From: Antrihabitans stalactiti
Lineage (GTDB): Bacteria > Actinomycetota > Actinomycetes > Mycobacteriales > Mycobacteriaceae
Direction: 5' to 3'
Assembly (NCBI RefSeq): GCF_012932915.1
Contig: NZ_VCQU01000003.1
Span: forward strand, 248,001-312,000
DNA: 64,000 nt
Part shown: piece after piece, positions 55,639 through 61,146 of the stretch
How the letters are laid out: each line of letters starts with the position of its first letter
Position numbering within the stretch: the stretch's first letter is position 1
Made by a program: the position numbers and the translations under genes
The notes under the pieces: model-generated
Told to the model about the DNA's origin: nothing
Databases searched by the model: none
The model's input: the letters and a program-made list of their open reading frames with translations, nothing else

Positions 55639-56019
55639 CTAGGCGAAGGCAGCCAGCGCAGCGTCGAGTGTGGGGTAGATGCCGAATACCTGGTCGAGTC
55701 CGGTCAGCTTGAGGGGCCTGCTCGTCGCGGGACCGTCGGCAACGACACCGAATGCTGTGGCGGCACCGAGCCGCTGATGCGCGGAGACGAGGATCGACAT
55801 GCCTGCCGAGGCGAAGAACTCCACCAACGCGAGATCGATGACGAGGGCGCGAGGATTGCCGTCTGCTGCCGCTGTGACCGCGCTTTCGAACTGGGCCGCC
55901 GTTGCCAGGTCCACTGTGCCTTCGACAGCCAACACGTTGATGTTGTCGCGCACGACGAGGGACGTCGTCAAAGCAGCACTTCGGGAGAACGCCGACTGTT
56001 CGTCGGGAGCCGTGGTCAT
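55639..56019 (-). CDS. STAS-domain anti-sigma factor antagonist (RsbV-like)
   Basis: 126 residues. The STAS fold is VVRDNINVLAVEGTVDLATAAQFESAV, with the phosphorylation-site region VIDLALVEFFASAGMSIL holding the Ser that an RsbW-type kinase would modify. It releases a sigma factor by binding the anti-sigma kinase when dephosphorylated. It is 37 bp downstream of the SpoIIE fusion gene and probably its dephosphorylation substrate. ATG 56019 is chosen at the domain start. Confidence 0.85.
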   Translation of the reverse strand: MTTAPDEQSAFSRSAALTTSLVVRDNINVLAVEGTVDLATAAQFESAVTAAADGNPRALVIDLALVEFFASAGMSILVSAHQRLGAATAFGVVADGPATSRPLKLTGLDQVFGIYPTLDAALAAFA

Positions 56020-56056: not shown

Positions 56057-58282
56057 CTATTGCGTCTCGCCGAACTGTGAGATCGGACCATCGCCGTGCG
56101 GCTGGGTCAACCTGGTCGCCATTCTGACGACGGTGCCGTCGCCCGAATGGTCGATCTCCACTCGTCCGGTCAGTGCTCGCATCATCGTGATGCCTCGCCC
56201 TCGGATGGACGAGTCGTTCGACGGCGGTTTCCAGGTGCCGGTGTCGGCGACGGTGACGACGACCTCGTCGGAGTCGGCCTCTGCGACAACGGTGAGCGTG
56301 CCACCGATGGTATGTCGATAGGCGTGTTCGATCGTGTTGGTCAATGCCTCGTTCACGGCCAGCACGATGTCCGACACGAGGTCAGCGGGAATCGCGGCAG
56401 CTGTGAGCCACGAATTCAGCTGGCCGCGCAGCAGAGCGAGCTGTGCGGGTTCGGCGGGTGCGGTGATATGCAGATCAGCCGGCTGCTGCCGGTAGATGAC
56501 GAGTGCGACGTCGTCGTCGTACCCGGCAATGGTCCGCAAGCCGGCGAGAACACGGTCTGCGGTGTCCTCAGGAGAGAGACCGGCTGCCTGCTCGAGCAAC
56601 CTCGCGGCGCCGTCGATTCCGGTATCGATGGATTCGCCGTGCCGTTCGACGAGTCCGTCGGTATAGAGCATCAGGGTCGAGCCCGGCGGCAGAGTCTGCG
56701 TCTCTTCCGGCCGGGGTGAACAGTCGTAGGTCGCGAGCGGAACTGCTCTGGCACCCTCGAGCACCGTCACGCCGTCGGGTCCACAAAGCAGCGGCGGCAT
56801 GTGTCCGGCATTGCTGAAGCACATTTCGCCGGTGTGTGGGTCGATCACTGCTGCGCACAACGTTGTGCAGACTGCGCCGGGAATGAGTTCGGCAACAGCG
56901 TCGAGCTCGTCGAGCAGTTGTCCGGGACTGGAACCGCGCAGCAACAACGCCCTTCCCGCGCTTCGCAATTGACCCATCACGGCGGCGGCCGCAAGCCCGC
57001 GACCGACGCAGTCGCCGACGATCACGCTGATACGGCCGTCGGGCAGCGTGACGACGTCGTACCAGTCGCCACCGATTTCGAGGGGCGGAACCGCAGGTTC
57101 GTAGCGAACCGCGAAGCGATGCGGCAGTTCGACGGACCCGAGCATCGCGCGCTGCAACGTCAGCGAGGCGGTGCGGGCCTGGTCGAAGTGACGAGCGCGC
57201 TGCAATGCGACGGTCAGCTGGCCGACCGCTAGTGCAACCAGGGCGCGGTCACCGGTCGTGATCACGCGGGGGTCGTCGTAGGACAGCACGAGCGCTGCGT
57301 CGTCCGCGCTACTGAGCGAGGCGACGACGCCCGCTGCGACACCGGGCGCCGCTGCGGGAATCGCAACGACGGTCAGCGCGGGCGAATGCCGTGCGTTGTC
57401 CAATTGCTCCTTGGTCCAGTCGTCGAGCGAGTCGTAGTCGGTCTCGCCGCTGGGCAGGTACCCGACCCCGCGCCGAGTTTCCTCCGGCCACACCGCGGCC
57501 ACAACCTGGTGTGCGCCAAGCATGTTCGCCAGCTCGGTCAGTGCGACCGTGAAAACGTCGGCGACGCTGCCGGCCGCCGCGATGGAGGACGCGAGCCGCG
57601 CCAGTGCCTGTTCGCGACCCGCGGCGGCGCGTTCGGTGGTGATGTCACGCGCGGTGCCGACGAACATTCCGGAGTAGCCGGGATGCGCGGTGAGCGGATT
57701 GGAGCTGACAGCCACCCACAGCCGCCGACCGTCGCGATGGCGGATCTGGATCGTGAATCGGCCCGGCCGAGCGGCGATCGTCACCGGAGTTCCGGTGGTG
57801 ATGGGATTGCCGATGATCCATGGATACGGCCAGCGGTAGGGCACGCCTTCGGGTCCGTACCCGGTGATGTCGCCGAAGGCTGCGTTGACTTCCACGATGT
57901 TCGCGTCGGCGTCGGTCACGAAGAATCCGTCTTGCAGCGACTCGACGAGAGCGCGGCGGAACGCATCGCGTTCGGCGAGATCTTCAGCCCGTTCGCGCTG
58001 CTGGCGGTACAGCCGCGTTTCATCGAGATAGCCGCGGGATGCGACGTCGAGGGCGATCAAGGACTGCAGCAGAAATTGCAGGTCACTGTCATCTGCGCGG
58101 CGCTCGGGGGATGCGACCAAGAGAAAGTGGGTTTCGATGACATCGAGAATGCTCACGCGGTGTTCCAGTGCCCACCGTCCGAGGTCGTGACCGACCGACA
58201 GACTGGTCTCGGTCCGCTGCTGCAGATGGTCGCGCAACGCGGCGCCGTACGCGGCCCGGAAGTCCTCGACAGGAGAGGTCAT
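56057..58282 (-). CDS. multidomain PP2C (SpoIIE) phosphatase with RsbU_N, PAS, GAF and HATPase domains
   Basis: 741 residues. Residues about 5-85 look like RsbU_N (FRAAYGAALRDHLQQRTE), the segment that receives RsbT; about 108-205 PAS (FFVTDADANIVEVNAAFGDITGYG); about 225-370 GAF; about 385-605 SpoIIE phosphatase (EIGGDWYDVVTLPDG, VGDCVGRGLAAAAVMG); and about 610-735 a kinase-type HATPase (DIVLAVNEALTNTIEHAY, RGRGITMM). It could both dephosphorylate STAS proteins and act as an anti-sigma kinase. Start ATGA overlaps the stop of the RsbX-like gene, so it is the last member of the stressosome operon. Confidence 0.9.
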   Translation of the reverse strand: MTSPVEDFRAAYGAALRDHLQQRTETSLSVGHDLGRWALEHRVSILDVIETHFLLVASPERRADDSDLQFLLQSLIALDVASRGYLDETRLYRQQRERAEDLAERDAFRRALVESLQDGFFVTDADANIVEVNAAFGDITGYGPEGVPYRWPYPWIIGNPITTGTPVTIAARPGRFTIQIRHRDGRRLWVAVSSNPLTAHPGYSGMFVGTARDITTERAAAGREQALARLASSIAAAGSVADVFTVALTELANMLGAHQVVAAVWPEETRRGVGYLPSGETDYDSLDDWTKEQLDNARHSPALTVVAIPAAAPGVAAGVVASLSSADDAALVLSYDDPRVITTGDRALVALAVGQLTVALQRARHFDQARTASLTLQRAMLGSVELPHRFAVRYEPAVPPLEIGGDWYDVVTLPDGRISVIVGDCVGRGLAAAAVMGQLRSAGRALLLRGSSPGQLLDELDAVAELIPGAVCTTLCAAVIDPHTGEMCFSNAGHMPPLLCGPDGVTVLEGARAVPLATYDCSPRPEETQTLPPGSTLMLYTDGLVERHGESIDTGIDGAARLLEQAAGLSPEDTADRVLAGLRTIAGYDDDVALVIYRQQPADLHITAPAEPAQLALLRGQLNSWLTAAAIPADLVSDIVLAVNEALTNTIEHAYRHTIGGTLTVVAEADSDEVVVTVADTGTWKPPSNDSSIRGRGITMMRALTGRVEIDHSGDGTVVRMATRLTQPHGDGPISQFGETQ

Positions 58283-58905
58283 GCCGCGGTACCTCGATAC
58301 CTCGCGACCAGGGCAACGGCGTCGTCGGTCGACCTGGCGCGGCGAGCCAAGATTTCCGCGGCGATCAGCTCTTCCGACTTCGTCGGATCGACGGCGTCGA
58401 CGTGCTCGCCCGAGATCCCGTCGGACGCCATGATCAGCAGGTCTCCGGTCTTGATCGGGACGGCAGGGGGTACCACGATCGACGGCATTCGATACCCCAC
58501 GATGCCGCCCGTGAGCAGTGCTGCTGCGCGCGTCTCCAGTCCTCCGGGTGCGATCGCTACCAGGGAAGACGACACGTTACCGATGCTCGCCCAGTGCAGC
58601 ACGGGGTCGTCGAATCTGATGATCGACAACGATATTGCCGCTCCACGTGTGTCGGTCAATGCTTCGTGACACAACAGCATGAGTACATCGACCGGTTCGC
58701 CAGAATTGTCCGTGATCACTGCGACCGCGCGCTGGGCGGCGACGGCGGCATCCGCGCCGTGACCGAGGCCGTCGATAACGGCGAACAATGCCGAGCTACC
58801 ACCGGTGTCGCAGGCGACCCACGCATCACCCGAAACATCCTCACCGGGTAGCGGCCGACCGGCGACTGCCCACTCGAGCGGTCCGATCCGACCACCCTCA
58901 CGCAT
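58279..58905 (-). CDS. RsbX-like PP2C phosphatase
   Basis: 208 residues of a single SpoIIE/PP2C-type domain: GEDVSGDAWVACD, ALFAVIDGLGHGADAAVAAQ with the metal-binding Asp, and IMASDGISGEH. No sensor domain is present. In Bacillus RsbX dephosphorylates RsbR and RsbS to reset the stressosome, the expected role here. It overlaps RsbT upstream by 8 bp and the SpoIIE fusion downstream by 4 bp. Confidence 0.88.
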   Translation of the reverse strand: MREGGRIGPLEWAVAGRPLPGEDVSGDAWVACDTGGSSALFAVIDGLGHGADAAVAAQRAVAVITDNSGEPVDVLMLLCHEALTDTRGAAISLSIIRFDDPVLHWASIGNVSSSLVAIAPGGLETRAAALLTGGIVGYRMPSIVVPPAVPIKTGDLLIMASDGISGEHVDAVDPTKSEELIAAEILARRARSTDDAVALVARYRGTAA

Positions 58906-59314
58906 CGAAAGCCAACCACTTCCACAGCTCGATCAAGGTTCCCTGACCGGGGCCCGATGTGACTTCCAAGTGATCCATCAACCGGCGAGCGCCGGGTAGA
59001 CCCAACCCGAGTCCGCCGCCGGTCGAGTAGCCGTCTTCGAGCGCGCGGGTGATGTCGGCGATCCCGGGCCCGTTGTCCGACGCACGCACGACCAGGGCTT
59101 TGCGGCCGTCCTTCTTCTCGAGTGACAGCGCGATCGAGCCGGTCCCGGCGTAGCTGGTGATATTGCGGGCGACTTCGGAGATGGCCGTCGCGATCATCGT
59201 GACGTCGGTCATGGAGAAGCCGAGATCCACGGCAAGATCCCGGCCGGCCTGCCGCGCGGTCACGATGTCGTCCGGCGTGTCGACCGCGACGACGAGATCA
59301 GCGGACACCGTCAT
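58898..59314 (-). CDS. rsbT: RsbT-like serine kinase
   Basis: 138 residues. N box ATAISEVARNITSYAGTGSI and ATP lid SDNGPGIADITRALEDGYST plus GGGLGLGLPGARRLMDHL follow Bacillus RsbT almost residue for residue. It is held by the RsbR-RsbS stressosome; on stress it phosphorylates them and is freed to activate an RsbU-type phosphatase. The start overlaps the RsbS gene by 17 bp, and the end overlaps RsbX by 8 bp. Confidence 0.9.
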   Translation of the reverse strand: MTVSADLVVAVDTPDDIVTARQAGRDLAVDLGFSMTDVTMIATAISEVARNITSYAGTGSIALSLEKKDGRKALVVRASDNGPGIADITRALEDGYSTGGGLGLGLPGARRLMDHLEVTSGPGQGTLIELWKWLAFDA

Positions 59315-59687
59315 ATCCGTTCCACTGCTTTCGCTGATCGAGTCGACGATTCAACAGTGCCAGACCTTCTTCCAGGTCCAACGCGGTGCTCATGCCGTCG
59401 AACGTCAGGCCCAGCTGCACCATTGCGAATGCAACTTCCGGCTGCAGACCGACGATCACGGTAGCGGCGCCACGTAATTGGGTCATATGAGCAACGGTCC
59501 GCAGCGACCGCGCGGCGAACGAATCCATCACGTCGATCGCTGTCACGTCGACGATGATCCCCTGCGCGCGGTAGCGACTGACCCGCTCCATGAGATCGTC
59601 TTGCAAGCGCTGGGCATCAGCGTCCGTCAACGCCGCCTGGACGGTGGCGATGAGATAAGTGCCCTGCTTGAGAATCGGTACGGGCAT
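59298..59687 (-). CDS. rsbS: RsbS-like stressosome core STAS protein
   Basis: 129 residues, a minimal STAS domain: PVPILKQGTYLIATVQAALT, the phospho-site VDVTAIDVMDSFAARSL (Ser after Asp, as Ser59 in B. subtilis RsbS), and VIVGLQPEVAFAMVQLGLTF. It forms the stressosome shell with RsbR. The 3' end overlaps rsbT. ATG 59687 lies 17 bp after the RsbR stop. Confidence 0.9.
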   Translation of the reverse strand: MPVPILKQGTYLIATVQAALTDADAQRLQDDLMERVSRYRAQGIIVDVTAIDVMDSFAARSLRTVAHMTQLRGAATVIVGLQPEVAFAMVQLGLTFDGMSTALDLEEGLALLNRRLDQRKQWNGYDGVR

Positions 59688-59703
59688 GGAAGCGTGACCC
59701 TTG

Positions 59704-60600
59704 TCAGCGCGCGTCGCGGACGGACTCGCCCGCACGGGTGACTTCGTAACCGAGGAGGCGTTCGGCTTCCTCGATACCACCCTGCAGGTCGCCGACTGCG
59801 TTCATCTTGGACAGGTCGAGGCCTATCGTGACCAGCGTCAACGCGATCTCCGAGGACAGTCCGGTGATGATCACGCTCGCGCCCATCAGGCCGGATGCGT
59901 CGACGGTCTGCACGAGGTGGTTGGCGACGGTGGAGTCGATGGTCGGCACACCGGTGATGTCGATGACGACCACCTTCGCGCGGTTCGCGCGGATTGCGCG
60001 AAGCAACTGCTCGGTCAACTGGCGGGCGCGCTGGCCGTCGAGCACACCGATGATCGGCAGAATGAGCAGCTGTTCACGGACCTGCAGAACCGGCGTCGAC
60101 AGCTCGCGAATTGCCTCCTGCTGCTGGCGAATGACGCGTTCGCGCTCTTGCACGAAGCTCACGCCCACGGTGTTGGCGATCCGGTTGGCTGCGGGCTCGT
60201 AGGCGTCGAGCACACGGTTGAGCAATTTGAAGTCCGACTGGTACTTCTCGAACAGCGAGCGCGCCAACACATCTCGCAGCAGGAGCACGATCCCGAGCAC
60301 TTCGTCGGTCTCGACGCCCCGCGGAATGATGCGTTCGGACAAGTCGCGCGCGTAGGCCTGCAGCGCCTCGACGCTGCCGGTCTCCAGTACCTCGACGTAG
60401 TTGTCGTAGACCGACGTCGCTTCGGAGAACACTTCGTCGGAGGTCATCGCGGTGAGCAATTGCGCTTCGGTGATGCGCCGCGCCCATTCCTCACGCAGCA
60501 CGGTCCGGTTCTGCCGAAGGTGCTCGACAAGCTGAGGCAGCAGGCTCTCACTCGATGCTGCTGCCGACTGAACCGTGTTGTCGAACGAACTCTGAGCCAT
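59704..60600 (-). CDS. rsbR: RsbR-like stressosome sensor
   Basis: 298 residues. The N-terminal 140 or so residues form a helical globin-like sensor (REEWARRITEAQLLTAMTSD), joined by a long helix (RERVIRQQQEAIRELSTPV) to a STAS domain with VVVIDITGVPTIDSTVANHL (phospho Ser/Thr site) and VIITGLSSEIALTLVTIGLD. First gene of the stressosome operon. ATG 60600 has GAGGA about 8 bases upstream. Only one RsbR paralogue is in the window. Confidence 0.9.
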   Translation of the reverse strand: MAQSSFDNTVQSAAASSESLLPQLVEHLRQNRTVLREEWARRITEAQLLTAMTSDEVFSEATSVYDNYVEVLETGSVEALQAYARDLSERIIPRGVETDEVLGIVLLLRDVLARSLFEKYQSDFKLLNRVLDAYEPAANRIANTVGVSFVQERERVIRQQQEAIRELSTPVLQVREQLLILPIIGVLDGQRARQLTEQLLRAIRANRAKVVVIDITGVPTIDSTVANHLVQTVDASGLMGASVIITGLSSEIALTLVTIGLDLSKMNAVGDLQGGIEEAERLLGYEVTRAGESVRDAR

Positions 60601-60662
60601 CGCACATCCTCGACCGTGTGGGTGATCTTCGAAACAAATCGTGAATCTGTTAGCTACCTCGC

Positions 60663-60687
60663 GCTTAACTCTCGCTCGCGTGGGTAA
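60663..60687 (+). promoter_or_regulatory. candidate SigF/SigB-type promoter for the RsbW-like gene
   Basis: GCTT (60663-60666), a 15-base spacer and GGGTAA (60682-60687) resemble the general-stress promoter GTTT-N15-17-GGGTAT used by SigF/SigB of actinobacteria. It lies 43 bp before the GTG start at 60730. If real, the anti-sigma gene is in the regulon of the factor it controls, a negative feedback. Confidence 0.35.
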
Positions 60688-60729
60688 CCGCAAGCATAGG
60701 ACCGCCTACTAAGTGAAGGGATCTCGACC

Positions 60730-61146
60730 GTGCGCAGTGTGTCGCTAGTGACCAGGGATGACTTCCGTATGACGGTCGCCACGGCGGACGCTGCCGAAAT
60801 CGGTTCGGTGCGAGAGGCATTGGCGGAGTGGTTGGGTCACTTGCCCTTGACTGTCGAGCGCACGTCCGACATCGTTCTCGCCTGCTACGAAGCGATGGCC
60901 AATATCGTCGAGCATGCGTACAGCGGGACACAGATTCCGTCGTTCGAGATCACCGTTGCCAACAACAAGCTTGCGCGTCGAATCTCGATCACGATCGCCG
61001 ATCACGGAACCTGGCGAACCCCGGACCCGGAAGCCGACATCCGCGGTCGAGGGCTGGCATTGCTGACGGCGCTGTGCGACCGCGCCGATGTGGTCACCGA
61101 GCGCACGGGAACAACGGTCTTGATGAGCTGGGACGACACTCTCTGA
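60730..61146 (+). CDS. RsbW-like anti-sigma kinase (HATPase)
   Basis: 138 residues. N box SDIVLACYEAMANIVEHAY and lid ADHGTWRTPDPEADIRGRGLALL. It is similar to the C-terminal HATPase of the 741-residue fusion (both share the IVEHAY/TIEHAY and HGTW/TGTW...IRGRG segments), suggesting duplication. A role in phosphorylating the STAS antagonist and binding a sigma factor is inferred. Divergent from rsbR; the sigma gene is not nearby. GTG 60730 follows AAGGGA. Confidence 0.85.
   Translation: MRSVSLVTRDDFRMTVATADAAEIGSVREALAEWLGHLPLTVERTSDIVLACYEAMANIVEHAYSGTQIPSFEITVANNKLARRISITIADHGTWRTPDPEADIRGRGLALLTALCDRADVVTERTGTTVLMSWDDTL

Follow-up and report, generated by a model that had tools for sequence, protein, structure and literature searches.

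RsbUW of Antrihabitans stalactiti, a phosphatase-kinase fusion encoded with stressosome genes and a likely output enzyme of the SigF partner switch

In the stretch of Antrihabitans stalactiti DNA analysed here (the window; 64,000 nucleotides of contig NZ_VCQU01000003.1), one gene appears to join an RsbU-like input domain to two enzymes of opposite action, a PP2C phosphatase and an RsbW-like kinase. Which signal does such a chain obey, on what do its enzyme domains act, and where did its kinase come from? An earlier note on this DNA proposed that the chain is activated by RsbT, that it works as a built-in ratchet on one STAS protein, and that its kinase is a duplicate of the separate RsbW-like protein encoded at 60730.

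Only the minus strand is open at 56057-58282, where a frame with an ATG start encodes 741 residues. The gene and the domains of its product are the following.

56057..58282, minus strand: rsbUW, 741 aa, RsbU_N / PAS / GAF-like / PP2C / RsbW-type HATPase (ORF, Pfam, orthologs, AF2 model)
58040..58249, minus strand: RsbU_N domain, residues 12-81, putative RsbT docking site (Pfam E 2e-11)
57641..57961, minus strand: PAS domain, residues 108-214 (Pfam PAS E 8e-11)
57191..57604, minus strand: GAF-like stretch, about residues 227-364 (AF2 model; GAF_2 in 4 of 43 orthologs; missing from genomes G004 and G034)
56489..57187, minus strand: SpoIIE/PP2C phosphatase with its entering helix, residues 366-598 (Pfam E 2e-43; 3ke6; invariant motif residues)
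56108..56476, minus strand: RsbW-type HATPase (kinase), residues 603-725 (Pfam E 1e-28; invariant E645, N649, D680, G682, G695, G697)

The RsbU_N, PAS, SpoIIE and HATPase_c_2 matches, the last two covering residues 414-598 and 609-722, each exceed the Pfam curated cut-off, and the proposed presence of all four domains in a single chain was thereby borne out. The chain holds RsbU_N, PP2C and an RsbW-type HATPase together, the combination referred to here as RsbUW. Of the two domains for which small-molecule sensing had been suggested, the presence of PAS was confirmed, whereas Pfam gives no GAF match anywhere in the 741 residues, and the GAF assignment survives only as a likeness. GAF_2 matches 4 of the 43 orthologs, weakly (best E 0.0013). 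An AF2 model built from a 43-sequence alignment (overall pLDDT 81.6; a single-sequence model with pLDDT 36 was set aside) is confident in the stretch between PAS and PP2C, the order of whose elements fits GAF, and Foldseek with this model retrieves phytochrome PAS-GAF chains. Two relatives (L218 and L219, in G004 and G034) have an RsbU_N-PAS-PP2C-kinase chain that is missing the GAF-like block alone, together with a complete RsbRSTX set. Taken together, a degenerate GAF-like domain between PAS and PP2C is indirectly supported by model and orthologs.

Both enzyme domains look catalytically intact, judging from their residues. G405, D406, G423, D424, D542, G543, D590 and D591 of the phosphatase, and with them the metal-binding Asp/Gly motifs of PP2C/SpoIIE, are invariant in 43 sequences, as are E645, N649, D680, G682, G695, G697, G716 and T717 of the kinase, which retains the N-box Glu and Asn and the G1, G2 and G3 boxes of the GHKL RsbW/SpoIIAB type. 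The invariance holds in both sequence sets, A2 with 43 members and a second, overlapping one with 37; the loss of key residues from either domain, which the earlier note regarded as fatal to its reading, was thus checked for, and all were intact.

rsbUW occupies the fifth place in an RsbR-S-T-X-UW-V operon on one strand, with RsbR first and the STAS gene last. Its partner genes are listed below with a divergent neighbour.

59704..60693, minus strand: rsbR-like stressosome scaffold, probable start ATG 60600 (PDB RsbR chains, E to 9e-30)
59298..59780, minus strand: rsbS-like STAS protein, probable start ATG near 59687 (Pfam STAS; position in relatives)
58898..59314, minus strand: rsbT-like switch kinase (Pfam HATPase_c; position and conservation in relatives)
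58279..58905, minus strand: rsbX-like PP2C (Pfam SpoIIE E 1.5e-8; position in 80 relatives)
55639..56019, minus strand: rsbV/rsfB-like STAS protein, probable substrate, acceptor Ser71 (PDB 4qtp E 5e-30; 8ih8, RsfB, E 7e-23)
60730..61146, plus strand: stand-alone RsbW-like HATPase, divergent neighbour (Pfam; tree and AU test)

The PDB chains nearest to the RsbR-like protein are RsbR from solved stressosomes; the RsbT-like protein gave no PDB match at 0.001 with phmmer. The coding ends of RsbT/RsbX and of RsbX/RsbUW overlap by a few bases each, which suggests that the three are translationally coupled. The STAS neighbour that had been named as the target is indeed RsbV-like: RsfB and a second anti-sigma antagonist (8ih8, 4qtp) are its closest matches, and the acceptor serine is aligned at S71, numbered from ATG 56019, a likelier start than 56091. 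Association with rsbR, rsbS, rsbT and rsbX extends beyond the window, the RsbR-S-T-X-UW order being found in 79 of 80 retrieved relatives (78 Nocardia and 2 Antrihabitans), while the remaining one ends at a contig edge. Not every member of the genus has the module, since one genome (G001) contains neither RsbUW nor RsbR. One locus (L239, G628) carries a second kinase gene, a stand-alone one, between rsbUW and an rsbV-like gene.

Proteins of this kind are already known from mycobacteria, and the present one is a further member. The name rsbUW is in use in M. marinum and other mycobacteria, with rsbR, rsbS, rsbT, rsbX and rsbV (PMC8115616); the name points to a U-W fusion there too, the companion genes are the same, and it is on these two that the likeness to M. 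marinum RsbUW rests. Relatives in a large sister genus (g29, probably Mycobacterium) share the architecture and gene order of RsbUW, the aligned members being 46-49% identical to it; rsbV is downstream on the same strand here but divergent from rsbR in the g29 loci. Among solved structures the best match, and also the top Foldseek match, is Rv1364c of M. tuberculosis (3ke6, E 4e-47, residues 366-728), which likewise has PAS, PP2C and an RsbW-type kinase in one chain. The Rv1364c family, however, carries a C-terminal STAS domain in the chain, whereas RsbUW ends after the HATPase and its STAS partner is a separate gene. B. subtilis RsbU also combines RsbU_N with PP2C and has RsbT in the same operon, but lacks the PAS domain, the GAF-like stretch and the kinase (PMC12143880), all three of which are present in RsbUW. 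Chains that unite a kinase with an opposing phosphatase have been described before, directed at one STAS protein in SypE and HsbR/CrsR and at the chain's own STAS domain in Rv1364c. SypE, HsbR and CrsR thus resemble what is proposed for RsbUW, with a kinase/anti-sigma domain and PP2C directed at one STAS protein; they are switched by a receiver domain, RsbUW presumably by RsbT through RsbU_N. As far as the sequence can tell, RsbUW does have the opposition built into its architecture, but this is nothing new. What this analysis adds is the co-loss or decay of RsbU_N with the stressosome and the promoter before Nocardia rsbR; Nocardia together with the stressosome is barely mentioned in the literature searched.

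Two natural losses of the stressosome offer a comparative test that RsbU_N serves it. Among 198 subsampled g29 genomes, 85 hold RsbUW, and RsbU_N is present in 74 of these; 67 of the 74 also hold RsbT and 7 do not, so that RsbU_N is kept in 67 of 67 relatives with RsbT in the genome, while RsbT occurs in 0 of the 11 without RsbU_N. In the 18 relatives lacking RsbT, RsbU_N is deleted (11) or decaying (7); RsbR, which was found in four stressosome-bearing controls, is missing from all 18 as well, and no RsbRSTX genes were found near rsbUW in these genomes. In the 11 proteins without RsbU_N, a usual N-terminus is followed at once by the linker helix ('MTDTADFHQ|RYERERARADDLADRD', L061), suggesting that the domain was removed by an in-frame deletion. 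In the seven RsbT-less remnants, mutual identity is 50% in RsbU_N against 85% in PP2C and in the kinase, pN/pS is 0.37-0.94 in RsbU_N against 0.08-0.31 in PP2C, and deletions in some copies extend into the linker. The pN ratio of RsbU_N to PP2C is 1.3-2.2 with RsbRST present and 3.4 in the decaying clade, to be read with RsbU_N always being somewhat faster than PP2C. The deleted and decaying groups form separate, well-supported clades in the tree, indicating two losses, and the comparison therefore counts two loss events only. Presence of and constraint on RsbU_N thus track RsbRSTX among the 85 relatives, in support of the proposal that this domain is the stressosome input; relatives in which it is deleted or decayed are predicted to be RsbT-independent.

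Alternatively, RsbU_N might be a dimerisation domain only, with its co-loss coincidental in two lineages. The B. subtilis domain also dimerises and the co-loss comprises just two events, yet dimerisation would still be required after stressosome loss, when RsbU_N is nevertheless deleted in one lineage and decaying in the other while PP2C and the kinase remain constrained. We consider this explanation quite improbable.

Other features of these families may be recorded here. At the decaying-RsbU_N loci (L225-L231), other PP2C-domain genes stand on both sides in 6 of 7, and on one side in a locus at a contig end; these are possibly replacement inputs. Where relatives have the stressosome, pN of the fused kinase (0.23-0.25) far exceeds that of the phosphatase (0.09-0.11) at matched identity; in the stressosome-less clade the two change equally fast. 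Related PAS-GAF-PP2C-kinase stretches without RsbU_N occur in other actinobacterial families, as parts of far longer open frames of about 1,400 codons (L064-L081).

How RsbT might act on this longer chain can be considered with B. subtilis RsbU, where RsbT docks on RsbU_N and orders a linker that pairs the PP2C domains (PMC12143880). RsbU_N of RsbUW aligns weakly with the B. subtilis N-domain (2j6z/1w53, E about 0.5), and Y28, an RsbT contact in RsbU, is not conserved, the aligned position being S29. In RsbUW, PAS and the GAF-like stretch intervene, so that RsbT cannot touch the linker entering PP2C as it does in B. subtilis RsbU and would need to act via helical relays; it has been proposed that helical linkers of a related kind serve PAS, GAF and other sensors (PMC12143880).

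On the output side, the genome has a single sigma factor above the SigB/F/G cut-off, and it adjoins an RsbW homologue.

G000:C26:146857-147989, outside the window: SigF-type sigma factor with adjacent RsbW (L015, L162)

This adjacent RsbW (RsbW1) no longer has the N-box Asn or the G1 box, and is probably a kinase-dead anti-sigma factor. Given this degenerate ATP site, phosphorylation of RsbV probably needs a separate kinase. The arrangement parallels that in M. smegmatis, which divides the two tasks between RsbW1 as anti-sigma factor and RsbW2 as kinase (PMC7693655).

The promoters point in the same direction in Nocardia. The SigF-type pattern GTTT-N14-17-GGGTA (published consensus GTTT-N14-19-GGGTA, PMC4694148) was searched within 300 nt upstream of rsbR. 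It was present in 72 of 75 loci, nearly all Nocardia, versus 0.002 per 300 nt elsewhere in the loci; since these loci are related, this is one conserved feature and not 72 independent ones. The motif (L083-L161) lies 33-175 nt before the start of homology, and suggests feedback of SigF on its own stressosome operon. No such promoter precedes rsbR in the window, in two other Antrihabitans loci or in 12 loci of other genera.

We therefore regard it as likely that RsbUW is a stressosome-controlled output enzyme of the SigF partner switch. In unstressed cells, RsbR and RsbS would hold RsbT and leave the phosphatase idle, while the fused kinase, perhaps with other RsbW-like kinases, would keep RsbV (55639) inactive through phosphorylation on Ser71. 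Once released under stress, RsbT would dock on RsbU_N; PAS and the GAF-like domain would tune the resulting signal, which would pass through helical linkers and pair the PP2C domains, and RsbV-P would then be dephosphorylated. RsbV could displace the separate RsbW1, with its degenerate ATP site, from SigF, and RsbX would reset the stressosome. We infer RsbT docking, both enzyme activities, RsbV as the shared substrate and SigF as the output. Points against this reading are the PAS domain and GAF-like stretch that separate RsbU_N from PP2C, the change from Y28 to S29, the 7 RsbT-less remnants, the number of losses (two only), the faster fused kinase with the stressosome present, the lack of a SigF-type promoter before rsbR in the window and the dispute over kinase activity in the homologue Rv1364c. 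If it is correct, general stress signals in Nocardia, and probably in many mycobacteria, seem to be routed to SigF via RsbUW and not via plain RsbU.

In a stronger form, which we put forward tentatively, RsbUW may be a stressosome-gated bifunctional switch. Because the ATP site of RsbW1 is degenerate, the fused kinase would be the dedicated RsbV kinase, and RsbT docking on RsbU_N would flip the homodimer from net kinase to net phosphatase via the PAS-GAF relay, so that one contact controls both arms. Should RsbT indeed control both activities in one chain, the balance of RsbV phosphorylation could be tested with few purified proteins.

Two other roles of the fused HATPase have to be weighed. 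It might mainly be an anti-sigma or RsbW1-binding domain that holds its partner until RsbV binds, as in CrsR, and not an RsbV kinase. CrsR and HsbR join PP2C to a kinase/anti-sigma domain that binds RpoS (PMC6482189), Rv1364c is reported to bind SigF, and the fused HATPase sequence changes fast in stressosome-bearing relatives; however, the complete kinase residue set is kept in every relative, and a separate RsbW1 adjoins SigF, so that this role seems rather unlikely. RsbUW could also be a phosphatase only in practice, with the HATPase an inactive docking module for RsbV. The kinase activity of Rv1364c is disputed, as far as titles and reviews tell (PMC10950880): the title of Sachdeva et al. 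2008, cited there, has the kinase activity lost in Rv1364c, while other work cited there found both activities. The presence of other RsbW-like kinases in the same genome would also suit an inactive module, but the ATP-site residues are invariant in all relatives checked, and we hold this second role to be improbable.

A ratchet that arose via duplication of the 60730 kinase is hardly credible. The fused kinase domain is 36% identical to the 60730 kinase, but the tree places fused kinase domains in their own clade (support 97/91), apart from the 60730 kinase, which groups with stand-alone Antrihabitans copies. Forced sisterhood is rejected (delta lnL 73, p-AU 7.5e-5), and the proposed duplication is accordingly ruled out by tree and AU test. 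Two other RsbW-like proteins of the same genome match the fused kinase domain better than the 60730 kinase does. Moreover, the fusion is common to Nocardia and another large genus, whereas a kinase of the 60730 type adjoins the operon in one other locus only. No observation favours irreversible cycling, and the published picture of SypE and HsbR is that of switches set by a signal, not of ratchets.

The window itself contains three perfect matches to the SigF-type pattern, versus 0.28 expected.

29561-29537, minus strand: SigF-type promoter-like site (pattern match)
55636-55612, minus strand: SigF-type promoter-like site, directly after rsbV and before a small membrane protein gene (pattern match, GTTT-N16-GGGTA)
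63087-63063, minus strand: SigF-type promoter-like site (pattern match)

An ATG with a GGAG-like ribosome site follows each of the three at a distance of about 40-60 nt; two of the genes that start there encode small membrane proteins and the other an MFS transporter.
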